DNA from: Erythrobacter sanguineus
GTDB lineage: Bacteria; Pseudomonadota; Alphaproteobacteria; Sphingomonadales; Sphingomonadaceae
Direction: 5' to 3'
NCBI RefSeq assembly: GCF_900143235.1
Contig: NZ_FRDF01000005.1
Span: 62,001 to 126,000, forward strand
DNA length: 64,000 nt
Shown: positions 2,007 to 19,218 of the stretch, piece after piece
Numbering within the stretch: the first letter of the stretch is position 1
Layout: the number at the start of each line of letters is the position of its first letter
Notes under the pieces: model-generated
The model's database searches: none
The model's input: only the letters and a program-made list of their open reading frames with translations
Told to the model about the DNA's origin: nothing
Program-made: the position numbers and the translations under genes

Positions 2007-3998
2007 GTGAATACCATCCTCATCATCGTGTTTGCGCCGTTGCTGGCTGCCCTGATCGCAGGGCTGGGCAACCGGATGCTTGGTAATGTCGCGGCCAAAT
2101 CCATTACCACTGGCGCGCTGCTGCTGTCGGCGGGCCTCAGCTGGCCGATCTTCCTTGGCTTCATCGGCGGAACCGAAACCGCCGAAGTGGTGCAGGTCCT
2201 GAAGTGGGTCGAAAGCGGCACGCTCTCGTTCGACTGGTCACTGCGGGTCGATACGCTGACCGCGATCATGCTGGTGGTGATCAATTCGGTCTCGGCGCTC
2301 GTGCACCTCTATTCATGGGGTTACATGGAGGAGGACCCGGATCAGCCGCGCTTCTTTGCCTACCTGTCGCTGTTCACCTTTGCGATGCTGATGCTGGTGA
2401 CGGCAGATAACCTTGTCCAGATGTTCTTCGGGTGGGAAGGGGTTGGCCTTGCCTCCTATCTGCTGATCGGTTTCTGGTTCAAGAAGCCGAGCGCTGGGGC
2501 CGCCGCGATCAAGGCCTTTGTGGTCAACCGCGTGGGCGATCTGGGCTTCATGCTCGGCATTTTCGGCACGTTTCTGGTGTTCCAGACCACCTCGATCCCC
2601 GAAATCCTTGCCGCCGCCCCGGCGATGAGCGGATCGACGATCACCTTTGTCGGCATGCGCCTGTACACCATGGATATTCTGTGCATCCTGCTGTTCATCG
2701 GCGCGATGGGCAAGTCGGCGCAACTGGGCCTGCACACCTGGCTGCCGGATGCGATGGAAGGCCCGACTCCGGTCTCCGCGCTGATCCACGCCGCGACCAT
2801 GGTGACGGCGGGCGTGTTCATGCTGTGCCGCCTTTCGCCGATGTTCGAGACCGCACCGACCGCGCTGATGATCGTGACGGTGATCGGGGCTGCCACCTGC
2901 TTCTTTGCTGCCACCATCGGCACCACCCAGTGGGACATCAAGCGGGTGATCGCCTATTCGACCTGTTCGCAGCTGGGCTACATGTTCTTTGCTGCTGGCG
3001 TTGGCGCATACGGGGTGGCGATGTTCCACCTGTTCACCCACGCCTTCTTCAAGGCGCTGCTGTTCCTTGGCGCAGGCAGCGTGATCCACGCGATGCACCA
3101 TGAACAGGACATGCGCTATTACGGCGGCCTCAGGAAGGCGATCCCGTTCACCTTTTACGCCATGCTGGCAGGCACGCTCGCGATCACGGGGCTGGGGGTC
3201 TATCACCTTGGCGTCGGCTTTGCCGGGTTCTGGTCGAAGGACGCGGTGCTCGAAGTCGCCTTTGCGCGCGGCACCCAGATTTCGGTCACTGCCTTCTGGC
3301 TCGGCGTTGTCGCGGCGCTGCTGACCAGTTTTTACAGCTGGCGGCTGATGTTCCTCACCTTCTGGGGCAAGCCGCGCTGGATCGAGAGCGAACATATCCA
3401 GCATTTCGTCCACAAGACGCCCGCCGAAGCCGGTGATGACACCACTGGCGGATATCACCCGCATGAAAGCCCGGTATCGATGCTGATCCCGCTTGGCGTG
3501 CTGACGATTGGTGCGGTTGCTGCCGGGCAGGTGTTTGCTCCCGCATTCCTTGATAGCGCCGCGTTCTGGGCTGGGTCGATATTCTATAACGAGCCGCTGA
3601 TCCACGCGATGCACGCGGTGCCATACTGGGTGAAGTATTCAGCGCTGGTCGTGATGCTCATCGGCTTTGCGGGGGCTTGCTTAGCCTATATTGCCAAGCC
3701 CGATATCCCGGCGAAGTTCGTCGCCACCTTCGGCGCTCTGCACAATTTCGTCTTCCGCAAGTGGTACTTCGATGAGCTGTATGATGCGGTCTTCGTGAAG
3801 CCCGCCTTCTGGCTCGGCGCGAAGTTCTGGAAGCTTGGCGATATCGGGACGATCGACCGCTTCGGCCCCAATGGCATCGCCTGGGTGGTCGATCGCAGCG
3901 CTACCGCTGCCAAGTCGATCCAGTCGGGATACGTCTACACCTATGCGTTGATCATGCTGCTCGGGCTGGTCGCCGCCATCACCTACGTTCTGCTTTAG
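2007..3998 (+). CDS. nuoL: NADH-quinone oxidoreductase subunit L (antiporter-like)
   Basis: This 663-aa protein is the distal proton-pumping subunit of complex I, with about 16 membrane helices and the long lateral helix at the C-terminus. Signature segments include [16 protein letters not shown] (the glutamate of the Glu/Lys pair) and [19 protein letters not shown] (the lysine and the broken-helix region). The start is GTG at 2007, preceded by AAGGGGTAAGG. The intact length and motifs indicate a functional subunit. Confidence 0.97.
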
Positions 3999-4013
3999 GA
4001 GCGCATTTCGCCA

Positions 4014-5594
4014 ATGGACGGCCTTCCCATCCTGTCGCTGATGATGCTCGTGCCGCTGGCGGGCGCGTGCGCGTGCCTGTTTGCGGGTGCGAGCCTTGCG
4101 CGCTGGATTGCGCTCGGGGCGACGCTCGTCACCTTTTTGCTCGGCGTTGTGCTGTGGTCGAATTACCAGATTGGCGGCCCGCAGTGGCAGTTCACCGAAC
4201 GCGCCGATCTGTTCGCGGGCTTCAGCTATGCGCTGGGGATTGATGGGATCGCGCTGCTGCTGATCATGCTGAGCGTGTTCCTGATGCCGATCTGCATCCT
4301 TGCCAGCTGGGACGGGATCCGGAAACGCGTCGGCGAATACATGGCCGCCTTCCTGTTCATGGAAGTGCTGATGATCGGCACATTCTCGGCGCAGGATCTG
4401 TTCCTGTTCTACGTCTTCTTCGAAGCGGGCCTGATCCCGATGTATCTGATCATCGGGGTATGGGGCGGGGATAACCGCATCTACGCCAGCTACAAGTTCT
4501 TTCTCTACACGCTGCTTGGATCGGTGCTGATGCTGATCGCGATGTTCTGGATGGTGGCCGAGGCCGGCACGTCCGACATCCCGACGCTGATGCAGTACGA
4601 TTTCCCGGCAGAGGCGCAGACCTGGCTGTGGCTGGCCTTCTTTGCGAGTTTCGCGGTCAAAGTGCCGATGTGGCCGCTGCACACCTGGCTGCCCGATGCC
4701 CACGTGCAGGCGCCGACCGCCGGGTCGGTGATCCTTGCAGGCGTGCTACTGAAGCTGGGCGGATACGGCTTCATCCGCTTCAGCCTGCCGATGTTCCCTG
4801 AGGCTTCCGCCGATTTCGCGTGGCTGGTCTTCATCCTGTCAATGATCGCGGTGGTCTATACCTCGCTGGTCGCGCTGGTGCAGGCCGACATGAAAAAGCT
4901 GATCGCCTATTCCAGCGTAGCGCACATGGCGATTGTCACGGTGGGCCTGTTCGCCTTCAACGTGCAGGGCCTAGAAGGTGCGATGATCATCATGCTCAGC
5001 CACGGCCTCGTCTCGGGCGCGCTGTTCCTGTGCGTGGGCGTGATCTATGATCGCCTGCACACCCGCGAAATCGCGCGCTATGGGGGCCTTGCGATCAACA
5101 TGCCCTATTACGCGCTGTTCTTTCTGCTGTTCACCATGGCGAGCATCGGCTTGCCGGGAACGAGTGGATTTGTCGGCGAATTTCTGGCGCTGGCGGGGAT
5201 CTACCAGACCTCCAGCCTCGTCGCGCTGGTGGCGACCACCGGGATCATCCTTGGCGCGGCCTATATGCTCTACCTCTATCGCCGCGTGGCGTTTGGGGGG
5301 CAGACCAATGAAGACGCGGCGGCGATGGGGGATATCTCGCCGCGGGAATGGGTGATGATGGCCCCTATTGCCGCAGCGGTGCTGTGGATGGGGGTTTACC
5401 CGGAAAGCTTCCTTGCGCCGATGCGCGCTGATATCGCGGTGCTTGATGCGCGGCTTGCGGCGGCGGCTCCGGCTTCCGATGCGCAGCTTGCCCCCGGCAC
5501 CCCGCGGGCAGACGCTGCCAATGCGCTGCCGCACCATGAAAACGCCGATCATGCCAACGACCAACCCGCAAGCGCCGGGGAGGGCGCGCACTGA
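4014..5594 (+). CDS. nuoM: NADH-quinone oxidoreductase subunit M (antiporter-like)
   Basis: This 526-aa antiporter-like pumping subunit has the glutamate motif [18 protein letters not shown] and the lysine/broken-helix motif [20 protein letters not shown]. After the last helix there is a C-terminal tail of about 45 residues rich in Ala, Asp, Asn and His that is not part of the core fold. The start ATG at 4014 follows TAGGAGCG. Its stop overlaps the nuoN ATG by one base (TGATG at 5592-5596). Confidence 0.97.
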
Positions 5595-7072
5595 TGGATT
5601 TCGTTCCTTCCTTCGCGCTCATCGCGCCTGAATTGCTGCTGATTGCCGCGGGTCTCGTGCTGCTGCTGGTTGCCGCATGGGGCGGGGACAAGGCCGCACG
5701 CGGTATTGCGATTGCCGCTGCCGCTGCTCTGTTCGGTGCCGGTTTCATGCTGGTACCGGGCCTGCATTTCGGCACCGATGGCCCGGCGACGCTCGCCTTT
5801 GGCGGACTGCTCAAGGTCGATAGCTTCGCGCTGTTTGCCAAGGCGCTGATTTATCTGGCGGCAATTGGCGCATTGATGGTCGCCCCGGCATTTTTCAGCA
5901 GCGCTGCTGCTGGAACCGAGCGCATGATGCGCGCCGAATATCCGGTGCTGGTGATCTTCGCTTGTGTCGGTATGAGCATCATGGTCTCGGCCAATGATTT
6001 CATGAGCCTTTATCTCGGGCTCGAACTCAACAGCCTGTCGGCCTATGTGCTGGCCGCGATCCTGCGGCGCGATGTGCGCTCGGGCGAGGCGGGGTTGAAG
6101 TATTTCGTGCTGGGCGCGCTCGCCTCGGGCATCCTGCTTTACGGAATGAGCCTGCTTTACGGCTTTACCGGCGGCACCGCGTTCACCGCCGTGCGCGCGG
6201 GCCTGACGGGCGAGATGGGAACCGGCGCACTGTTCGGGGTGATCTTTGTCCTGTCCGGCCTTGCCTTCAAGATTTCCGCGGTGCCGTTCCACATGTGGAC
6301 GCCCGATGTTTACGAGGGCGCGCCCACGCCTGTCACCGCGTTCTTTGCCACCGCACCCAAGGTCGCTGCCGTGGCGCTGACCGCGCGCGTCGTGTTCGAG
6401 GTGTTCGGCGGGCAGGTGGACGCATGGCAGCAGATCGTCATGTTCACTGCGCTTGCATCGATTGTCTTCGGCGCATTGGGTGCGATCGGGCAGGAAAGTC
6501 TGAAGCGTCTGCTGGCCTATTCCTCGATCAATAATATCGGGTTCATCCTGCTCGGCCTTGCGGTGGCCAATCAGGCGGGGGCCAGCGCCATGCTGGTCTA
6601 CCTGTTCATTTATGTCGCCATGAGCCTTGGCAGTTTTGTCGCGCTGCTGATGCTGCGCGGCGAGGACGGCAACCTCTACGAGACCTTTGCCGATATTCGC
6701 GGGCTTTCAGTGACGCAGCCGGCGATTGCATGGGCGCTGCTGCTGTTCATGTTCAGCCTTGCGGGCATCCCGCCGCTGCTTGGCTTCTACAGCAAGTTCG
6801 TGGTGTTTCAGGCCACGGTCGAGGCCGGATTGATCGCCTTTGGTGCGATCGCCATCGCTGCCAGCGTGATCGGTGCGTTCTATTACATCAAGTTCGTCAA
6901 GGCGATGTTCTTCGACGAACCGGCAGGCGTGGTCACCGGCAAGAGCGGCGCGGGCCATTGGGCGCTGCTGGGGCTGACCGCCGTGATCATCTCGCCGCTC
7001 GGCTATCTGCTCACCCCGTCGCTGACCGATCTGGCTGACAAGGCCGCGGCTTCGCTGTTCCTCGCGGTTTGA
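5594..7072 (+). CDS. nuoN: NADH-quinone oxidoreductase subunit N (antiporter-like)
   Basis: This 492-aa third antiporter-like subunit of the complex I membrane arm closes the nuo cluster. Recognisable motifs are YLGLELNSLSAYVLAA and FKISAVPFHMWTPDVYEGAP, the segment with the conserved lysine and broken helix. The stop codon 7070-7072 overlaps a TTG start (7069-7071) of the biotin ligase gene as TTGA. Translation of the downstream housekeeping genes is therefore probably coupled to nuo. Confidence 0.97.
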   Translation: MDFVPSFALIAPELLLIAAGLVLLLVAAWGGDKAARGIAIAAAAALFGAGFMLVPGLHFGTDGPATLAFGGLLKVDSFALFAKALIYLAAIGALMVAPAFFSSAAAGTERMMRAEYPVLVIFACVGMSIMVSANDFMSLYLGLELNSLSAYVLAAILRRDVRSGEAGLKYFVLGALASGILLYGMSLLYGFTGGTAFTAVRAGLTGEMGTGALFGVIFVLSGLAFKISAVPFHMWTPDVYEGAPTPVTAFFATAPKVAAVALTARVVFEVFGGQVDAWQQIVMFTALASIVFGALGAIGQESLKRLLAYSSINNIGFILLGLAVANQAGASAMLVYLFIYVAMSLGSFVALLMLRGEDGNLYETFADIRGLSVTQPAIAWALLLFMFSLAGIPPLLGFYSKFVVFQATVEAGLIAFGAIAIAASVIGAFYYIKFVKAMFFDEPAGVVTGKSGAGHWALLGLTAVIISPLGYLLTPSLTDLADKAAASLFLAV

Positions 7073-7794
7073 ACGCTGCGCCTGCCATCAGACTGGTCGA
7101 GGAAACCGGATCGACCAATGCCGATCTTGCTGGCGCAATCCGCGGCGGTCAGACCCTGGCGGAAGGCACATGGCTGGTGGCGCGGCGCCAGACTGCCGGC
7201 CGCGGGCGGCAGGGGCGCGCATGGTTTGATGGCGCTGGCAATTTCATGGGTTCGACCGTGGTGACGCTGGAAACGGACGGACCGCCGCCGGCCTCGCTCA
7301 GCTTCGTTGCCGCGCTGGCGGTGCGCGATGCCGCTCGAAAGGCGCTGGGCAAGGGGGCCGACCTCGCGCTCAAATGGCCCAATGATGTGCTGCTGAACGG
7401 CGGCAAGCTGTCAGGCATCCTGCTTGAGATGGTGCGCGGTCAGATCGTGGTCGGGATCGGGGCCAACCTTGGACGGGCGCCCGATCTGCCTGACCGCAAG
7501 ACCGCGGCGCTGGCTGACGTGATCGCCCCGCCTCGGCCCGAGGATTTTGCGGCCAGCCTTGCCGCCAGTTTCGCCCGCAGGCTGGAAAGCTGGCGCATCC
7601 ACGGCCTTGGCGCGACGTTGCAGGCGTTTCTGGATGGTTCGATCCATGCCCAGGGCTCACCCGTCACTGTGCATGATGCCGACGGATCGGTGCTTTCCGG
7701 CTCCTTTGCCGGGTTGGAAGAAAGCGACGGCGCGTTGCGGCTGCGCTTGGCGGACGGCAGCGAACGTGTCATTCGCGCCGGGGACATATCCTAG
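7069..7794 (+). CDS. birA: Biotin--[acetyl-CoA-carboxylase] ligase (BirA without DNA-binding domain)
   Basis: This 241-aa enzyme makes biotinyl-AMP and transfers biotin to the biotin carboxyl carrier protein. Visible motifs are the N-terminal TGSTNADL, the adenylate-binding loop RQTAGRGRQGRAW and LKWPNDVLLNGGKLSGILLE. There is no N-terminal winged helix, so this is a monofunctional ligase and not a repressor. The start appears to be TTG at 7069, inside the nuoN stop (TTGA). Placement after nuoN and before coaX and rnj is a conserved alphaproteobacterial order. Confidence 0.93.
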   Translation: MNAAPAIRLVEETGSTNADLAGAIRGGQTLAEGTWLVARRQTAGRGRQGRAWFDGAGNFMGSTVVTLETDGPPPASLSFVAALAVRDAARKALGKGADLALKWPNDVLLNGGKLSGILLEMVRGQIVVGIGANLGRAPDLPDRKTAALADVIAPPRPEDFAASLAASFARRLESWRIHGLGATLQAFLDGSIHAQGSPVTVHDADGSVLSGSFAGLEESDGALRLRLADGSERVIRAGDIS

Positions 7795-7809
7795 AAAGGA
7801 ATGCATCAG

Positions 7810-8604
7810 ATGCTGCTCGCCGCCGATGTCGGGAACACCAATGTCGTCTTCGCCTTGTTCAATTACGACGAGGACGGGACGCACCATATCCGCGCGCGCT
7901 GGCGGATCGCCACTGACCCGCGCCGCACGGGCGATGAATATGCGGTATGGCTGCTGCAATTGCTCAAGATCGAAGGCGTCGATCGCACCGACATCACCCA
8001 GATCATCGTCGCCTCGGTGGTGCCGCGCGCGGATCATAACCTTACCGTGCTGTGCCAGAAATATTTCGGCCTCACGCCGCTGTTCGCAGGGCAGGGCAAG
8101 GCGGCGTGGCGGTTTGATATTGATGTCGACCAGCCATCCTCGCTCGGGGCCGACCGTGCGCTCAATATCCTTGCCGCGCATCACAAGTTTGGCGGCGATC
8201 TGATCGTCGTCGATTTCGGCACCGCCACCAAGTTCGAAGCGGTTGATTTCACCGGCGCTTACAAGGGCGGATCGATTGCGCCGGGGATCAACCTGTCATT
8301 GGATGCGCTGGTGGGCAAGACCGCGAAGCTGCCGCGCATCGCCATCCGCACCCCTTCCAGCCGCAGCGTGATCGGGCGCAACACCGAAGATCAGATGCTG
8401 ATCGGTGTGTTCTGGGGCTATGTCGCGATGATGGAAGGCATGGTTGCGCGGATGCAGGCCGAAATTGGTCGCCCCGCGAAGGTTGTAGCGACCGGCGGGC
8501 TCGCCATATTGTTCGATGACGCCACAGACATTTTCGATCACGTCGATGCCGACCTGACACTGGACGGCCTCGCGATCCTTGCCCGTCAGGCCGAAACCGC
8601 CTGA
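7810..8604 (+). CDS. coaX: Type III pantothenate kinase
   Basis: This enzyme phosphorylates pantothenate, the first step of coenzyme A synthesis. The ASKHA-fold motifs are clear: DVGNTN near the N-terminus, [25 protein letters not shown] and a late ATGGLA. An in-frame ATG at 7801 directly abuts the AAAGGA at 7795-7800, whereas the ATG at 7810 lies nine bases after it. I therefore prefer 7810 (264 aa, starting [11 protein letters not shown]). It lies between birA and rnj in one transcription unit. Confidence 0.94.
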
Positions 8605-10615: not shown

Positions 10616-13171
10616 CTAGGTGCGCAGGCGCTGGATCGCCTGCGCCAGCGCGACATAAAGCTTGCCCATGTCCGAACCCAGCATCGTCACGCTCAGCACG
10701 TGGCCGTCGCGGGTCGACAAGGTCGAACGCAGCATTGCCTCGAAATCGTGAATGTAGCGGGTGACATTGGACTTGAAGTCATGGTCGCTCTGATAAAGCT
10801 CGGCAATGTCGCGCGCCGTGCCATTGTCGATCAGCCGCACGGCGCGGCGGGTGAAGATCCCGCGGTCGCCCTTGAGATAGGTGTCCCACGCGGTGTCGGC
10901 GACTTCGGCCGATAGCGCACCGGTGATGTCGATCGCCGCCGAATTGAGGCTGTCGGCGATCAGCGCCATGCGCCGCGCGAAGTCGTTATTGACCTGCTCC
11001 TCCGCCAGCTCGCGCGCCCGCGAGACGCGCTGTTCGAGATTGCCGGTAAGCTCGTTGACCCGCACCATCTGGTCGCGCAACTGGATCACCACCTCGCGGC
11101 CGACCCCCGAAGCATGGGCGGCGGCTTGCTCGATCTTGCCCATGGTGGCGGCGGTTTCGTTGCGCAGCGTGCGTTCGAGCACCTGCACCGTCTCGCCGCC
11201 AAGCGCCTTGGCCAGCACGGCGGCTTTTTCGCGCACACCATTATCGAGCGTGACAAACGCCTGCGCGATGGCATTTTCCAGCGCGGCCAAAGCCGCACGC
11301 AACCGTTCCTGCGTGTCGTCTGCCAGCGTTCCGCTTTCTTCGGCCAGCTGGGCAAATCCGCCGCGCAGCCCCTGCAATCGGGCCAATGTGTCGTCGGATT
11401 GTTCGGCAAGGCGGGTGCGGAAGCCGGCAATGGCTTCGTCGGCGGCGTCGATCTCTGCGCGGGTCTTGAGAAGATAGTCGGACAGATCCCCGGCCTGTTC
11501 GCTGGTGCGTAGCATCAACTGGTTGACCTCGCCCGCCCGATTTTTGACCGATTCGAGGCTGCCGTCAGCGGCGGCGATGGCCTGTTGCAGATCATCGCGG
11601 CTCGTGCGCGCGCCTGACTGGATGATTTCAAGCAGCCGCACGCCGCTTTCGGTCAGCTGGGCAAGGCGGGCCTCGGTTTCGGCGAGACCGATGCGCTGGG
11701 CCGACAGCTTTTCGTCCAGATCATCGAAGCCGCTCGAAAGGCTGGTGCGTGCGGTATCACCGTTTTGGCTGATCTTGCCGAGCAGCGCGCCGAATGTCTC
11801 AAGCTGTGCCGCAATAGCCTCGCCATGCGCGACCAGCTTTTCAGTATCGGCAAGCTGGGCTTCGCGCCGCTGGGCAAGGGCATCGTCAAGCGCGGCGAGC
11901 CGCTGAGCCAGAACCTCGCTGGCCTGCGCCTCGCGGGTGTCGAATTCCGCCTGCCGTTGCTCGATCGCCTCGGCAAACCTGACATCGCGCTCGGCGATAC
12001 GCGCATCGATCTGCCCCGCTTCCTCGGTGATGGCGGCAATCCGCTGGCGCGCGGCGGCCAGGGCGCTGGCTTCTGTCTGTTCGACCAGCCTGAGCCGGGC
12101 GGCGACTTCCTGTTCGAGCGCTTCAAGTTCGGCGCGCATCTGCTGGCGGGCGTTCTCGTCGGCTTCGCGCAGGCGTTCAGCCGCGGCGGCGATATCTGTT
12201 TCAAGCTGGCTTGTCTGTGCGCGCATGGTGCCCAGCGCGGTGGTTTCCATCGCCTCGATCCGCTCACGATATGCAGCGGTTTCACCTTGCAGACCGGCGA
12301 AGCGTTCGGCCACGAGGGTTTCGATCCGCGCAACCTGCGCCTCGAAGCTGTCCAGTGTTTCGCCAATCGTGGTGCTGAGGCCCTGCACCCGGGTTTCGCT
12401 CGTGCTGCCGAGCTGGCCCAGCCGTTGAAAGCCCTCGGTCAGGCGTTCAAGCTGGCTTTGCGCATTATGGCCCGCACCGCCGATCTGGTTGGCGACATCG
12501 CGCGCGGCATTGGCAATCACCGGCAGATCGTCGCGCAGCTGGTTCATGTTGCCCAGAGCGGTGTCGCTGGCGGTACCGATCGCCTCGACCTGCGCGCCGT
12601 TGCTGGTGATAAGCTGCTGCAATTCGGCGGCATTGGTGGAAATCCGCTCGGCCGCGATCCGGCCCAGCGCTTCAAGATCGCGCGATTGCGCGGCGAGAAA
12701 CTCCCGCGCAAGGCTGAGCTCGCGGTTCACCACCTTGAGCCGCACCTCAAGCTCGGCGCTTTCCCGGCTGAGCAGGGCTGCGCTGGCAGCAAACCGGTTC
12801 GCTTCGGCGCGCGAGGACCGCATTGCCAGCAGCCACATGATTGCGATCAGCGCGACCGGCACCGACCATTGCACAATCCACCCGGCCCAGGCGGCAGGAG
12901 GCGGCCCGGCGATGAGTTCAGCACTGATTGTCCAGCCGAAAAAGCCCGTCCAGCCGGCGATTGCCAGCAGGGCGAGGGCAGGGGCAAGCCAGCCGAAACG
13001 GGACGCGGGCGGGGCGGCAGGTTCACTGTCATCCCACGCATCCTCCAGCAGCATGTCACCGCTGTCCTGGGGCGCATCGGGCATGCCCGCAGCCTCCGTC
13101 GAACCGGGTTGCGATGCGTCATCCGCGCCGCTCTTGCGCCCCAAGGCGCGTATCTGGTGCCGTTCTGCCAT
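10616..13171 (-). CDS. TipN-like polarity protein: two N-terminal helices and a long coiled coil
   Basis: With ATG at 13171 (GAGGGGG just upstream) the product has 851 aa. An acidic N-terminus is followed by two transmembrane segments (about 59-82 and 96-117), then some 600 residues of Ala/Glu/Gln/Arg-rich heptad helices. A compact C-terminal block of about 100 residues contains YLKGDRGIFTRRAVRLIDNG and SDMGKLYVALAQAIQRL. Size and layout match TipN, the Caulobacter birth-scar protein of about 880 aa that sets the polarity axis. I recall a similar C-terminal block there but cannot align it here. Alternatively it is an unrelated coiled-coil membrane protein. Confidence 0.6.
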   Translation of the reverse strand: MAERHQIRALGRKSGADDASQPGSTEAAGMPDAPQDSGDMLLEDAWDDSEPAAPPASRFGWLAPALALLAIAGWTGFFGWTISAELIAGPPPAAWAGWIVQWSVPVALIAIMWLLAMRSSRAEANRFAASAALLSRESAELEVRLKVVNRELSLAREFLAAQSRDLEALGRIAAERISTNAAELQQLITSNGAQVEAIGTASDTALGNMNQLRDDLPVIANAARDVANQIGGAGHNAQSQLERLTEGFQRLGQLGSTSETRVQGLSTTIGETLDSFEAQVARIETLVAERFAGLQGETAAYRERIEAMETTALGTMRAQTSQLETDIAAAAERLREADENARQQMRAELEALEQEVAARLRLVEQTEASALAAARQRIAAITEEAGQIDARIAERDVRFAEAIEQRQAEFDTREAQASEVLAQRLAALDDALAQRREAQLADTEKLVAHGEAIAAQLETFGALLGKISQNGDTARTSLSSGFDDLDEKLSAQRIGLAETEARLAQLTESGVRLLEIIQSGARTSRDDLQQAIAAADGSLESVKNRAGEVNQLMLRTSEQAGDLSDYLLKTRAEIDAADEAIAGFRTRLAEQSDDTLARLQGLRGGFAQLAEESGTLADDTQERLRAALAALENAIAQAFVTLDNGVREKAAVLAKALGGETVQVLERTLRNETAATMGKIEQAAAHASGVGREVVIQLRDQMVRVNELTGNLEQRVSRARELAEEQVNNDFARRMALIADSLNSAAIDITGALSAEVADTAWDTYLKGDRGIFTRRAVRLIDNGTARDIAELYQSDHDFKSNVTRYIHDFEAMLRSTLSTRDGHVLSVTMLGSDMGKLYVALAQAIQRLRT

Positions 13172-13239
13172 AGCCCCCTCATACCACAGCCGGAATCGGG
13201 ATAAACCCCGCTTTAACCTTGCCGGTGTAAGTCCATCCC

Positions 13240-13551
13240 ATGGCTTATGACAATGGAGCACTCGACGCGACACTGGCGGCAGCAGCCGGCAATGATGCCG
13301 TGCTGATGCGCGAGCTGCGCGGTGCGTTCCTGGAAAGCGCCCGCCGTCAGCTTGATCTGCTCAAGCGGGCGCGCTGCGATGGCAACTGGACCGTCGCGGC
13401 AATGCGCATCAAAGGGCTGGCAGCAAGTTTCCACGCCGACGAATTGCTGGCCGCTGCCGACCACGCGCTGAATTCTGCGCCGGGTGAACCGATGGCGATC
13501 CGTGAGATCGAGTCGGTTCTGACCCGGTTTGGCGGCACCGCGCGGATTTGA
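13240..13551 (+). CDS. Hpt-like four-helix protein lacking the phospho-acceptor histidine
   Basis: This is a 103-aa all-helical protein. The segment AAMRIKGLAASFHADEL (about residues 53-69) lines up with the Hpt signature AHxLKGxxxxxGAxxL: K58 and G59 are kept, but the histidine position is M55. It would therefore keep a response-regulator docking surface without being phosphorylated there. It is transcribed away from the TipN-like gene with 68 bp between the starts and lies upstream of a His-less kinase gene. The Hpt relation is pattern-based; another helical bundle is possible. Confidence 0.55.
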   Translation: MAYDNGALDATLAAAAGNDAVLMRELRGAFLESARRQLDLLKRARCDGNWTVAAMRIKGLAASFHADELLAAADHALNSAPGEPMAIREIESVLTRFGGTARI

Positions 13552-13659
13552 TCAGGCAAACTGGCCGCTAATTCGGGCAAAGTCCGGGCACGTGGCTTGA
13601 ACCGCTGCGTCGAAACCGCCAATCCCGGTGCATCAGACCCCTTGTGAAAGGCGGCCACG

Positions 13660-14856
13660 ATGCGCACGGCCCTGGTTGCAGCCCTCAGAAGAACCGCTAG
13701 CGGTGCCTTGCGCGCCGAGCTCCCGCTTGCCGGGCGTTCGGTGCTGGCGCGGCAGGTTGAAGTGTTGCGTGCACAAGGCTGCGAGCGGATCTTGTGCCTG
13801 TGCGAGCGGGTTGATGGCGAGGTGTTGCGGGTGCAGCAGGCGGTCGAGGCCTCGGGCGGCACGTTTCAGGCCTTGCGCGGGTTCCTGCACTTGCCCGCGC
13901 TGGTGCGCGCGGAAGATGATCTGGTGATCCTTGCCGACGGCCTGCTGCCGGATCCGGGGCTTGTCCGCGCCCTGTTTGCAGATGGCGCGCAGCCGCCGCG
14001 CTTCGTTGCGTCGCTGCCGGCCGATAGTCCGCTGGTTGCGCTGCATCCGGATGATTTTGAACGTATTGATGCCGGGCATCATTGGGCCGGGTTGCTGGCG
14101 ATGCGCGGCGCCCCGGTGCAGCAACTGGCCGATTTTCCGTCCGATGCCGATGCTGTCTCGCTGCTCTTGCGGCTTGCCCTGCAGGCCGGGACCCCATGCC
14201 GTGCGCTTCCAGATGAGGAGCCTTCGTCCAAGGTGTGGTTGCTGGCTGACGACCCGGCCGCGCTGGCGGTGAAGGAACAGGCATTGATCGCACGCGCGGC
14301 CGGTCCGGTGGATTGGCGCGCACCGATGATTGCGCTGGCCAACCGACTGGTCGAAAGCCTCATGCCGCGCGCTTTGCCGCAAGGAGCGCAGGCGGGGGCG
14401 GCTGCATCGATCCTGTTTCTGGCGCTGGGGGTGCTCACCGCTGCATCGGGCGCTGCGGCCGCCGGGCTGGGACTGGCCGCGTGCGGTGCCTTTGCCCTGA
14501 ATATCGCCGGTGCCTTTGCCCGGCTGCGGTTGCTGCTGCTGGGTGAAGGGCCATCGCCGGTTGTTCTGGCGCGACTGGGCTGGGTGGCAGACGGGCTGGC
14601 CGCGATCGTTCTGCTATTCGCGCTTGCGCCATGGCCTGTGGTCTTGCCGCTGGCCGTGCTGGGGCCGCTCGCGATCGGGCTGGCGAGGCTGGCGGCGCAG
14701 GGCCGGCGCGGGGCGGTGGCGATCATCCTGTCCGACCGCATAGCGCTGTTGGCTGGCTTTGCGATTGCCCATCTTGCAGCTCTCCTGCCCGAGGCGCTGG
14801 CGCTGTTCTGCCTTGTTGTTCTTGCTGCTTTGCTGCTGCGCAGCGCGCCGGATTGA
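13660..14856 (+). CDS. Predicted nucleotidyltransferase-like domain fused to a membrane domain; function unknown
   Basis: This 398-aa protein is very rich in Ala and Leu. Residues 1 to about 235 resemble a degenerate nucleotide-sugar or MobA-type transferase fold (GRSVLARQVEVLRAQG, DDLVILADGLLPD). From about 245 it has five or so hydrophobic helices. The overall plan recalls cytidylyltransferase/CDP-alcohol phosphotransferase fusions, but neither a GxGxR loop nor the DGxxAR...GxxxDxxxD motif is present. Catalysis is therefore doubtful. GAAAGGCGG precedes the ATG. I do not recognise a named family. Confidence 0.55.
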   Translation: MRTALVAALRRTASGALRAELPLAGRSVLARQVEVLRAQGCERILCLCERVDGEVLRVQQAVEASGGTFQALRGFLHLPALVRAEDDLVILADGLLPDPGLVRALFADGAQPPRFVASLPADSPLVALHPDDFERIDAGHHWAGLLAMRGAPVQQLADFPSDADAVSLLLRLALQAGTPCRALPDEEPSSKVWLLADDPAALAVKEQALIARAAGPVDWRAPMIALANRLVESLMPRALPQGAQAGAAASILFLALGVLTAASGAAAAGLGLAACGAFALNIAGAFARLRLLLLGEGPSPVVLARLGWVADGLAAIVLLFALAPWPVVLPLAVLGPLAIGLARLAAQGRRGAVAIILSDRIALLAGFAIAHLAALLPEALALFCLVVLAALLLRSAPD

Positions 14857-14857
14857 A

Positions 14858-14872
14858 CTAACACGGATTTAA
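14858..14872. promoter_or_regulatory. Candidate CtrA-binding site (CTAA-N7-TTAA)
   Basis: CTAA at 14858-14861, seven bases, then TTAA at 14869-14872 differs by one base from the alphaproteobacterial CtrA consensus TTAA-N7-TTAA. It lies in the short gap before the gene starting at 14888 or 14912, where cell-cycle-regulated promoters would place it. A 15-base degenerate site occurs by chance now and then, so this is suggestive only. Confidence 0.4.
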
Positions 14873-14887
14873 CTATGCGCAGGCTAT

Positions 14888-15835
14888 ATGCGCATGATGG
14901 GCGAAGAAGCGATGGACTTTGCTGGCGGCGGAATGGTCGAGGCGATCCTGCGGGATGAACTCGCGCGTGAGGAGCGCGCGCTGGGTTCTGTCGTCCCTGT
15001 TTTGCGTCATTTGCTGGCAAGCGAAGGGCAGACGCTGGTGAGTGACGCCATTCTGGCGCGGGTGCGCGGGATGCTGGCGGATCTTGCGGCGCAAATGCTG
15101 GCGGTGGCCGAAGGGCGCGATGCTGCCCTGCGGATGTCGGGCGCAGGCGATACGGCCGCGCGCGATATGCTGGCCAATGCACTGGCGGGTGATCCTGCCC
15201 TGCTGTCGTTCTGCCATGCGCTTGCCACTGAAAGCCAGCTTGCCCTGCGGCTTCAACAGCGCAGCGGGATCGACCCGGTGCTGAGCCCGCTGCTGCAGGA
15301 ACTGATCGCTTCGGATATGCCGGCAATCGCGGAACTGGCGATGAACACGCTCGCCGCACAATCGCGCTTCATCCAGAGCCAGCGCCGCATGGAATTGCCG
15401 CTTGGCGAACTTCCGGCAGAGCTGTTTCATGCACTCGTTGCAGGGGTTGAGCGGCAGATTGATGACGCCGCCGGGATCGCGCGTCTCCAGCAGACCTATG
15501 ATGAGGGTGCGAGCCGGCTTGGCCTGCTGGCCCGGCTTGTTTCGACCATGCGGCGCGGGGCGGTGGCGGCGCTCGCGCTTGATCATGCCGGACTGGCGCT
15601 GTTCTCCAGCGCGCTCGCAGCCCTTGCCCGCCAGCCGCGCGCGGCAGCCGTGATTGCCTGCCATGAAGGCCAGGGCGCACGGCTTGCACTTGGCTTGCGC
15701 GCCGCTGGTCTGGGGCCGGAGGCGATCGAGCGCCAGTTCTTGGCTGTCCAGCCTTCCGCGCGCATCACACCGGGCATTGCCGATGTCTCGCCCGATCAGG
15801 CACGCCTGCTGCTGGCCGCGGGGCAGGCTGGATGA
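14888..15835 (+). CDS. Helical protein of unknown function, possibly DUF2336-like
   Basis: This 315-aa soluble protein is predicted almost entirely helical with HEAT-like spacing. The central segment SRFIQSQRRMELPLGELPAE resembles what I remember of sphingomonad DUF2336 proteins, which often sit beside sensor kinases; the match is from memory. The start is uncertain: ATG at 14888 or 14912 (MDFAGGG, with GAAGAAGCG in front). Its stop overlaps the next gene (ATGA at 15832-15835), so it is co-translated with the atypical kinase. A candidate CtrA box precedes it. Confidence 0.6.
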   Translation: MRMMGEEAMDFAGGGMVEAILRDELAREERALGSVVPVLRHLLASEGQTLVSDAILARVRGMLADLAAQMLAVAEGRDAALRMSGAGDTAARDMLANALAGDPALLSFCHALATESQLALRLQQRSGIDPVLSPLLQELIASDMPAIAELAMNTLAAQSRFIQSQRRMELPLGELPAELFHALVAGVERQIDDAAGIARLQQTYDEGASRLGLLARLVSTMRRGAVAALALDHAGLALFSSALAALARQPRAAAVIACHEGQGARLALGLRAAGLGPEAIERQFLAVQPSARITPGIADVSPDQARLLLAAGQAG

Positions 15836-17238
15836 ACAGCATGGACCGCCGCGACAGCCTGCTTGGCGCCCGCGGGTTTACCGATGCGGCCGACCGCCTG
15901 ATCAGCGCGGACGAGGCGCTGGCCGAGCTGCACCAGCGCTGCGGTGGGCAGATGTCCGGCACGCTGGCGATTCCGGAATTGCTGGCACTGGTGCGGCAGG
16001 GCCGCCGCATGGGCCTCAGGATCGCGCGGGAATTCTTCGCCTTTGACGGCGAGGCCCGGATCAGCGGCTTTGCGCGGATTCACCCGCTTGCCGAGGCTGA
16101 GGGCGGCGGCTGCGAGGTGCTGGTTGAAAACTGGCAGCGCAGCGCGGCCTCGCCATCGCAGGGCCGCGAATTGGCCGAGCGGCTTGATGCGATTGACCGT
16201 GCCACCGCCGAAATCAGCGCCCGGCTAGACGCGCGCCAGCGCGTGCAGGTGCTGAGCGCGCTCGCGCCCGATGCGGCCGAACTGCAAACGGCGGCAATGA
16301 TGGCGCCGGGCAAGGTATGGAGCGATCTGGTCGCGCTTTCCGGCATCTCCCATCAGCAACCGCTGCACTGGCGGCTGCTGGATGGCACGGCGTGCCAGTT
16401 TGCCGGATCGCAGCGCCACTGGCGCGTGCGGCTGATTCCGCTCGGTTCCGATCCGCAGGCCCCCACAGGGTTTGAACTGCTGTTGATCGCCGAAGAGCCG
16501 CTGGTGGCAGAGGCGGCGGGAGACGAATATGGGCAGGGTGAAGAGGCAACGCCCACGCGCCTGATCGGCACTGCGCTTGCCCCGGTCTTGCGCCAGCCGG
16601 TGGCGCGGATCATCGCCAATGCCGAAACCATCCGCGCGCGCCTTGCTGGCCCGTTGCGCGATGAATACAGCGATTACGCCGGCACCATCGCCAGCGCCGG
16701 ACAACACCTTGCAGCAATGCTGGATGATCTTGCCGATCTTGAAGTGGTCGAAACGCCGGGCTTTGCAACGGTGCGCGAACAGGTCGATCTTGTAGATGCG
16801 GCGGGGCGGGCAGCGGGGATCCTTGGTGTTCGGGCGCAGAACCGCGAGATCAAGCTGATTGTCGCGGGTGAGAGCAGCGGTGCGGCGGCGATGGCCGAGT
16901 TTCGCCGGGTGCTGCAGATCCTGATCAACCTGATCGGCAATGCGATTGCCTATTCGCCGGTCGGCAGCACCGTCACAATCACCGCCGCTGCGGCGGACGA
17001 GGGCCGCGTGGCGGTCAGCGTCGCCGACGAAGGGCCGGGGGTGACGCCCGAGCAGGCACAGCGCATCTTCGAGAAATTCGAACGCTTGGGGCGCGACAAT
17101 GACGGCGGGAAGGATGGAGGTTCGGGCCTGGGCCTCTATATCTCGCACCGCCTTGCCGAGGCGATGGACGGCAGCCTGACGGTGGAGAGCGCCAAGGGCG
17201 GAGGTGCGCTGTTCACGCTGGAACTGCCGGCGGCTTGA
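15832..17238 (+). CDS. Histidine kinase-like protein lacking the phospho-acceptor histidine
   Basis: This 468-aa soluble protein has an N-terminal region of about 240 residues without a clear sensor fold. A dimerisation segment follows, in which the H-box (normally SHELRTPL) reads APVLRQPV at residues 250-257, so no histidine is present. The ATPase domain is intact: N-box LINLIGNAIAYS (around 364-375), G1 DEGPGV (399-404) and G2 GSGLGLYIS (430-438). It may bind ATP and dimerise but should not autophosphorylate at the usual place, like the pseudokinase DivL. It overlaps the preceding gene by four bases. Confidence 0.8.
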   Translation: MNSMDRRDSLLGARGFTDAADRLISADEALAELHQRCGGQMSGTLAIPELLALVRQGRRMGLRIAREFFAFDGEARISGFARIHPLAEAEGGGCEVLVENWQRSAASPSQGRELAERLDAIDRATAEISARLDARQRVQVLSALAPDAAELQTAAMMAPGKVWSDLVALSGISHQQPLHWRLLDGTACQFAGSQRHWRVRLIPLGSDPQAPTGFELLLIAEEPLVAEAAGDEYGQGEEATPTRLIGTALAPVLRQPVARIIANAETIRARLAGPLRDEYSDYAGTIASAGQHLAAMLDDLADLEVVETPGFATVREQVDLVDAAGRAAGILGVRAQNREIKLIVAGESSGAAAMAEFRRVLQILINLIGNAIAYSPVGSTVTITAAAADEGRVAVSVADEGPGVTPEQAQRIFEKFERLGRDNDGGKDGGSGLGLYISHRLAEAMDGSLTVESAKGGGALFTLELPAA

Positions 17239-17913: not shown

Positions 17914-19200
17914 TTAACGCTTGTCCAGCGGCACGTAATCGCGCTGGGTCGGGCCGGTGTAGAGCTGGCGCGGACGCCCGATCTTCTGGCCGGGATCGGA
18001 GATCATCTCGTTCCACTGCGCTACCCAGCCGACCGTGCGGGCCAGCGCGAACAGCGCGGTGAACATGGTGGTCGGGAAACCGATCGCCGACAGGATGATG
18101 CCCGAATAGAAATCGACGTTCGGGAACAGCTTCTTCTCGATGAAATAGGGATCATTGAGCGCCAGTTCTTCCAGCCGCAGCGCGGTTTCGAACAGCGGAT
18201 CATCGACCTTGAGCGCATCGAACACCTCGCGCACGGTCTTCTGCATCACCGCAGCGCGCGGATCGTAGTTCTTGTAGACGCGGTGACCAAAGCCCATCAG
18301 TCGGAACGGATCATTCTTGTCCTTGGCGCGCTCGATGTAATGCGGGATCTTGTCGGGGGTGCCGATTTCACGCAGCATGTTGAGCGCGGCTTCGTTGGCT
18401 CCGCCATGCGCCGGGCCCCACAGACAGGCAATGCCCGCCGCGATGCAGGCGAACGGGTTTGCGCCCGATGAACCGGCGAGGCGCACGGTCGAGGTCGAGG
18501 CGTTCTGTTCATGGTCGGCATGGAGGATGAATATCCGGTCCATCGCCCGCTCCACCGCCGGGACCACTTCATATTCCTCGGCCGGAACGCCAAAGGTCAT
18601 GCGCAGGAAATTGCCGGTGTAGGACAGACGGTTGTCCGGATACATGAAGGGCTGACCGACCGCATATTTGAACGCCATTGCCGCAATTGTCGGCATCTTG
18701 GCGATCAGCCGGTGCGAGCTGATCTTGCGGTGTTCGGGATCGGAAATGTCCGTGCTGTCGTGATAGAATGCCGACAGCGCGCCAACCACGCCGCACATGA
18801 TCGCCATCGGGTGCGCATCGCGGCGGAAGCCGCGATAAAAGGTCATCAGCTGTTCGTGCAGCATGGTGTGGCGGGTGATGGTGTAGGTGAAATCGTCAAG
18901 CTCGTGGCTGCTCGGCAGTTCGCCATTGAGCAGCAGGTAGGAGACCTCCATGAAGCTCGAATGTTCGGCCAGCTGGCCGATCGGGTAACCGCGGTGCAGC
19001 AGCACGCCTTCGTCGCCATCGATATAGGTCAGCGCGCTTTCGCAAGATGCGGTCGATGTGAAACCGGGGTCGAAGGTGAAGGCACCCGTCTGCGCATAGA
19101 GCTTGCGGATGTCGACCACATCCGGGCCGGTGCTGCCTTCGAGCACGGGATACTGATACGAATTTCCGCCCAGATCGAGTTTCGCCGACTTGTCTGCCAA
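17914..19200 (-). CDS. gltA: Citrate synthase
   Basis: This is a type II, hexameric bacterial citrate synthase of 428 aa that condenses acetyl-CoA and oxaloacetate to start the TCA cycle. Catalytic regions are visible: the His of [15 protein letters not shown], the His of [13 protein letters not shown] and the Asp-containing stretch near NVDFYSG. I place the start at a TTG at 19200 (MADKSAKLD), seven bases after AGGAG. An upstream in-frame TTG at 19218 lacks a ribosome site. gltX lies 18 bases upstream on the same strand. Confidence 0.95.
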
Positions 19201-19218
19201 GGTCTGTCTCCTGTCCAA

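Follow-up and report, generated by a model that had tools for sequence, protein, structure and literature searches.

Within a 64,000-nucleotide stretch of the Erythrobacter sanguineus genome (contig NZ_FRDF01000005.1, positions 62,001 to 126,000 of the forward strand; here the window) is a gene for a TipN-like protein, divergent from a run of four genes that encode an Hpt-like protein, a membrane protein referred to here as NT, a protein related to DUF2336 and a histidine kinase homologue (HK). Three products of the run, HK, Hpt and NT, are without catalytic residues; their genes are retained and constrained, and the ATP pocket of HK is intact. Comparison with relatives of the locus makes a residue-intact ancestor, followed by loss of these residues, very probable. 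The five-gene arrangement is that of an initial annotation of this DNA, coordinates included; the reading given there, of a combination that could anchor or read a cell-pole signal without phosphotransfer, is supported in part. The parts are as follows.

10616–13171, minus strand: TipN-like protein of 851 residues, with an N-terminal hydrophobic part, a long coiled-coil-like middle and a C-terminal domain of about 120 residues
13202–13217, plus strand: CtrA-like site, TAAA-N7-TTAAC, inside the 68-bp stretch between TipN and Hpt
13240–13551, plus strand: Hpt-like protein of 103 residues, a predicted helical bundle in which the phosphoacceptor His is absent
13660–14856, plus strand: NT, a degenerate IPCT-DIPPS-like membrane protein, characterized by a predicted model, a fold match and an absent motif
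14888–15835, plus strand: DUF2336-related helical protein, whose distant same-place members match PF10098
15832–17238, plus strand: HK, its ATP-binding boxes intact and its H box, PVLRQP, without His
17914–19218, minus strand: gltA (citrate synthase), which in most loci directly follows the module

The overlap annotated within the run is seen between the DUF2336-related and HK genes, which share four bases; TipN, however, most likely starts at 13171, 68 bp from Hpt, and not at 13273, so that the TipN and Hpt genes do not overlap. A protein started at 13171 begins with MAERHQIRALG, which resembles the starts of its relatives.

The window HK matches the HisKA and HATPase families of Pfam. Its earlier description as a pseudokinase is right for the phosphoacceptor site, where HELRTP has become PVLRQP with loss of the acceptor His and of the acidic residue that follows it, but not for the ATP-binding boxes, which are intact. 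His is missing from the acceptor position in 93 of 94 aligned HK rows (the window, 29 and 64 loci, many of them close kin), and the ATP-site residues are kept in all 94, with the N-box Asn and the G1 Asp and Gly invariant. The acceptor position is occupied by P in 86 rows, A in 3, Q in 2, and R, G and H in 1 each, and is followed by Val or Ala in 90 of the 94. In a wider set of 103 rows it holds P in 67, H in 8, R in 7, Q and A in 5 each, G in 3, E and D in 2 each, and K, T, V and S once each, the ATP-site positions being held in 101–103. Because the acceptor place drifts in this way, a replacement acceptor at the old site seems unlikely. The eight His-bearing rows comprise six canonical kinases with MSHELRTPL (L296 and L305–L309; handles beginning with L denote loci) and two of Zymomonas type (L101 with HSFKPP and L301 with HSFKPS).

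The drift bears also on whether HK is still a kinase, its ATP site phosphorylating another protein on Ser, Thr or Asp in the manner of the GHKL kinase SpoIIAB, with the DUF2336-related or TipN-like protein as a possible substrate. Retention of the ATP-site N, N, D and G in 102–103 of the 103 rows is what such an activity would need, but the old site, the one site examined, offers no other residue conserved as an acceptor, and SpoIIAB-like kinases are without the DHp helix pair; we regard continued kinase activity as improbable. A close described parallel is DivL of Caulobacter, a histidine pseudokinase with Tyr at the acceptor site that is used in polarity and cell-cycle control. Both are acceptor-less kinases, but the acceptor site of the sphingomonad HK drifts and its partner genes differ.

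In the window Hpt, initially proposed to be His-less, the place of the acceptor His is taken by Met (MRIKGLAAS), and 69 of 71 rows from the family are likewise without His (57 of 58 in a first set), judged by the HxxKG criterion for the phosphoacceptor in the available part of PMC11481889. The 69 rows have M (40), L (14), W (10) or, in five, other residues; the remainder of the signature, LKGxAASF, is kept, and an RxRCDxNW patch is nearly invariant (at least 12 of 14 rows). His is found in L075 (Pontixanthobacter rizhaonensis) and L254 (genome G040), and in the later-fetched L296, L302 and L324. Outside the family, an Hpt match accompanies the TipN-like gene in 34 of 72 loci, the other 38 being short contigs and real absences that are not told apart; all 34 are divergent from TipN and all 34 carry His. 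A gene for an NnrU-like membrane protein lies near, and mostly between, the TipN-like and Hpt genes in 12 of these 34 loci (L191, L194, L199, L202, L216, L219, L225, L227, L228, L230, L231 and L232).

Kinship of the window protein with the Hpt proteins of Pfam is traced through relatives. It has no Pfam match at E ≤ 1, and PF01627 is matched by its relatives in L075 (7.7e-4, below the cut-off) and L296 (above the cut-off), which one profile joins with the Pfam-matched Hpts of L191 and L194. A chance helix was set aside as an identity, since the relatives match PF01627. Structure prediction gives a helical bundle (pLDDT 87.5), whose ten best matches in a second structural look are Hpt proteins, HptB (PDB 7c1i; VIA Z 12.2, 2.9 Å over 101 residues) being the first; ShpA (2ooc) has Z 9.3. 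From these proteins it differs by the missing phosphoacceptor His and by the RxRCDxNW patch. On this scale a score of 13 is within reach of helical bundles, and one of 10.5 even of unrelated ones. As Foldseek gave no match to the model at E ≤ 0.001 and unrelated bundles come so close, the identity leans on the sequence intermediates.

NT had been described as a nucleotidyltransferase-like membrane protein, a description that can be taken further: it is a degenerate relative of IPCT-DIPPS, a kinship unseen in the initial annotation. With the predicted model (pLDDT 90.6), Foldseek ranks the A. fulgidus IPCT-DIPPS (PDB 4mnd) first (E 6e-10), and the two align across both domains of this two-domain fold (VIA Z 22.9, 4.7 Å, 361 of 398 residues). 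A sequence search of the PDB returned weak matches only (nucleotidyltransferases, designed and other proteins). The difference lies in D-x2-DG-x2-AR, a motif of IPCT-DIPPS and CDP-alcohol phosphotransferases, which is absent from the window NT and from 84 of 91 rows. It is present in seven rows (L290, L292, L294–L297 and L304) and in the later-added L310; L043 has DG..AR only. An NT called intact here thus has the first part of one motif, the G-x3-D-x3-D part being uncounted. In their N-terminal half none of the 91 rows matches a crude glycine-loop pattern; because it is missing even from those that bear the motif, this half may have degenerated earlier.

Motif-bearing NT genes have inositol-lipid genes as neighbours. 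A gene for inositol-3-phosphate synthase (INO1) lies beside NT in all seven of these loci and in the motif-less L288, and an IPCT-like gene and a further CDP-alcohol phosphotransferase gene in six of the seven. INO1 was not found in the window genome (E ≤ 1e-30) and is present in 36 of 149 family genomes. NT is best seen as a former inositol-lipid enzyme. The TipN locus L296 also holds a gene for a Wzi capsule protein among those for INO1, the IPCT-like protein and the CDP-alcohol phosphotransferase (2946–6235 and 7726–8550).

That the loss of the His residues of HK and Hpt is secondary, which the initial annotation had not seen, is read from early-branching relatives that carry them. In locus L296 the HK is canonical, the Hpt has its His and the NT has DGVDGKLAR, with genes for INO1 and IPCT alongside; the kinases of L305–L309 are canonical too. 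In other families of Alphaproteobacteria, three pairs fetched for this adjacency (L185, L186 and L187) have a DUF2336 gene followed directly by the kinase gene; gene order and homologous proteins are as in the window, but their kinases are canonical, with SHELRTPL or SHELMTPL. In a tree of 41 HK rows, a 100/100 branch parts all nine HELRTP-type kinases (six family members and these three pairs) from the remaining 32. An earlier, 46-row tree included unrelated or long-branch kinases (L200, L205, L214, L217, L187_HKb and L291), which were dropped along with some other rows as new ones were added; it agrees, since L296, then the sole known HELRTP family member, falls outside a group formed by the 37 other kinases of the family (99/83). 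If the three non-family pairs are taken as the outgroup, this division of canonical kinases from the rest is most simply explained if the acceptor His and next acidic residue of HK were lost once.

The losses in the three genes were not one event. At L308 a canonical kinase occupies the same address (NT-DUF2336-HK-gltA-gltX) and the NT motif is already lost; L310, the first branch of the HELRTP-less side, has INO1, IPCT and an NT with PLDGVDGKLAR, so that its kinase His went before the NT motif. Among 70 loci with both HK and Hpt in view, 67 are without both His residues, two have that of Hpt only, one has both and none has that of HK only. Genome G040 has both on different contigs (L254 and L305), as G007 has both in L302 and L309, with an Hpt frame that looks broken. 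The test of linked loss rests on these two genomes and that of L296.

The synonymous and non-synonymous changes that separate six relatives from the window argue against decay, least strongly in the case of NT. The NG86 dN/dS is 0.08–0.13 for Hpt, 0.14–0.20 for HK, 0.15–0.30 for TipN, 0.15–0.27 for the DUF2336-related gene and 0.25–0.39 for NT, against 0.08–0.14 for gltA, rnj and gltX; the values are rough because dS is near or above 1. The genes might still be remnants that relaxed selection is allowing to disappear, an idea to which the range for NT and the 13 of 82 family loci in which Hpt was not found lend some colour. Set against it are an NT match in 143 of the 149 genomes of the window's GTDB family (E ≤ 0.001) and an HK match in 121 (E ≤ 1e-60), a dN/dS of Hpt as low as that of housekeeping genes, and the newly invariant patch of that protein, and we consider it very improbable.

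The annotation had made its proposal depend on conservation of the neighbourhood beyond close relatives, and conservation extends far beyond them: with exceptions, the module recurs across Sphingomonadaceae between rnj and gltA. After 16 of 80 loci (L105–L120) were set aside for their unrelated kinases, the gene order is repeated in the remaining 64 (L041–L104) wherever the contig is long enough. Exceptions are the absence of Hpt in Zymomonas (L101), Sphingomicrobium (L102), L103, L073 and L078, L096, where NT and HK lie too close together to leave space for a DUF2336 gene, and three Novosphingobium loci (L077, L080 and L086) in which HK and gltA are 2 to 4 kb apart, with other DNA between them. 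In L085–L094 and L100 a plain sequence search did not recover the DUF2336-related protein; in L085, the one locus of these checked, a frame in its place has a weak PF10098 match (E 0.005). Plain sequence search finds it in 70 of the 149 family genomes, divergent ones being missed.

This third gene of the run, first described as coding for a helical protein, can be specified as a divergent relative of DUF2336. The window protein has no PF10098 match, and four of five distant same-place proteins pass the cut-off, so that its kinship is established by intermediates; a profile of the distant members and the window protein matches canonical DUF2336 proteins. A PDB sequence search with a DUF2336 protein gave nothing below 0.6, a literature search found nothing on DUF2336, and NCBIfam gave nothing useful for the window TipN, Hpt, NT or DUF2336-related protein.

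Kinship of the large coiled-coil protein with TipN, proposed from its architecture, is supported by its C-terminal domain, found in 78 of 289 genomes of the class (counted by eye), and by the divergent Hpt gene of the 34 loci outside the family. This combination of a class-wide C-terminal domain with a divergent Hpt neighbour is proposed here as defining TipN. Any TipN match is seen in 88 of the 289 genomes, ten of them in the coiled coil only. In family f11 the domain is present in 54 of 60 genomes; f11 is probably Caulobacteraceae, judging by its DivJ-like kinases, which resemble DivJ best among those tested, far under the cut-off. A DivJ family search for a Caulobacter genome gave none over the cut-off (best 327 of 1000 bits). 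A TipN-like match occurs in 133 of 147 genomes of the order, and the listed identities to TipN-like proteins in its other families are 24–42%.

TipN of Caulobacter is a polar coiled-coil protein similar in size to the window protein. The likeness is that of a membrane-anchored long coiled coil, predicted in the window protein, and orthology with Caulobacter TipN is a candidate relationship, approached here through family f11. One segment of the window protein, residues 98–116, passes a 19-residue hydropathy threshold; a second membrane candidate, seen by eye at about 63–85, fails it. The coiled coil is assigned from look-alike matches, the only kind that a PDB sequence search returned. Residues 726–848, approximately, form the class-wide domain, which has no credible Pfam or NCBIfam match and is a candidate new domain family; several of its matches (L126–L150 and others) sit in far longer frames of up to 2752 residues. 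Literature searches found nothing on TipN in Sphingomonadales or on cell polarity and polar coiled-coil proteins in Sphingomonas, and the pairing of TipN-like and Hpt genes was not found, including in the available parts of PMC7083601, PMC10127582 and PMC7403779.

Upstream of Hpt, the CtrA-like site noted in the initial annotation is both present and conserved. The window site is the sole TWAA-N7-TTAAC in the 64 kb (0.11 expected), and all 53 loci compared (the window and 52 others) have an NNAA-N7-TTAAC that begins 38–41 bp ahead of the start of Hpt, where 0.7 are expected from the density in the same loci. The exact CtrA consensus TTAA-N7-TTAAC occurs in two of the 53, and the site is putative. 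The accessible part of PMC7200025, on CtrA in sphingomonads, makes no mention of TipN.

Such a site, together with the Hpt kinship and predicted bundle, would suit a decoy: the His-less Hpt could bind receiver domains of the CckA-ChpT-CtrA pathway or of the DivK branch and so tune CtrA, with HK as partner. One frame of the L302 cluster matches a receiver domain in Pfam (4.6e-15) and also, weakly and below the cut-off, Hpt (0.0012), and L299 has two frames similar to it by resemblance only. The window cluster, however, is without a receiver gene, and binding between this Hpt and a receiver is a proposal; we think a decoy role rather unlikely, its chances overlapping with those of the scaffold described below. 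In the clusters of these two early-branching family members, the receiver-domain frame and an additional Hpt-like stretch with AHDxKGQGG are at L302:6045–7094 and, by resemblance only, L299:7903–8965.

We propose that an ancestral TipN-linked phosphorelay locus, in which a His-bearing Hpt gene divergent from TipN was joined by a DUF2336-HK pair, took up the inositol-lipid enzyme NT and, in crown Sphingomonadaceae, became a module of non-catalytic proteins. HK would serve as an ATP-dependent conformational switch of the GHKL type that holds its DUF2336 partner, and the His-less Hpt as a docking adaptor for HK or for receiver domains; NT and TipN would be the membrane anchors of the assembly, which would probably sit at a pole, and CtrA may time expression from the shared promoter region. 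Taken as a whole, the passage from phosphorelay to non-catalytic ATP-binding scaffold, its function being inferred, has in our judgement slightly less than an even chance. The more specific proposal, possible but distinctly less likely, is that the kinase, Hpt and lipid-enzyme locus became a pseudoenzyme complex that, by ATP binding alone and with CtrA timing, marks or reads a pole through the TipN-like protein, in place of the ancestral TipN-coupled phosphorelay whose Hpt appears intact in other Alphaproteobacteria.

Several observations weigh against this proposal. A joint function is argued from synteny, and the activity of the residue-intact forms is predicted from residues. The members are separable: the 13 loci in which Hpt was not found include those of Zymomonas and Sphingomicrobium, L096 has no room for DUF2336 and a profile found none in L250, L285–L287 have NT, HK and, where found, DUF2336 beside gltA and away from TipN, and in L293 and L300 TipN and NT are present but Hpt, DUF2336 and HK are not matched. 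The residues are separable too, a His-bearing Hpt being paired with a His-less HK in L075 and L324, and a His-less HK in L310 with a remaining NT motif and INO1 and IPCT neighbours; NT is the least constrained of the genes. Finally, the two Zymomonas-type kinases carry His at the aligned place. They were rejected as a retained active form, and since the tree nests them inside the clade without HELRTP, reappearance of the residue by drift is simpler.

Such mobility would be expected if TipN-Hpt, NT and DUF2336-HK were separate units, together for historical reasons and each with a non-catalytic function of its own. Members that move or vanish independently fit this, as does TipN-Hpt without the other genes in view, common in other families, but the four-gene run and its CtrA-like site persist over divergent genera, and a His-bearing HK was never found with a His-less Hpt, in a comparison that only the genomes of L296 (in one locus), G040 and G007 permit. 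Separate units are a real, if unlikely, possibility. Whatever joins its genes, a locus with residue-intact and residue-less versions within one bacterial family is a natural experiment, through which phosphotransfer-independent functions of two-component proteins can be asked about gene by gene; more widely, a link between TipN-like proteins and an Hpt gene extends across several alphaproteobacterial families.

The order of genes in the window is rnj, DUF1467, TipN-like (minus strand), Hpt, NT, DUF2336-related and HK (plus strand), gltA and gltX (minus strand) and comEC, in a genome of 2.98 Mb whose nearest named relatives are Erythrobacter and Porphyrobacter. In Caulobacter the citrate synthase CitA is a cell-cycle regulator, according to the available part of PMC7083601, where tipN deletion strains are used, and here gltA adjoins the module in most loci. 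This adjacency may be a coincidence, as in L285–L287, whose kinase genes lie away from TipN, gltA accompanies the kinase genes.

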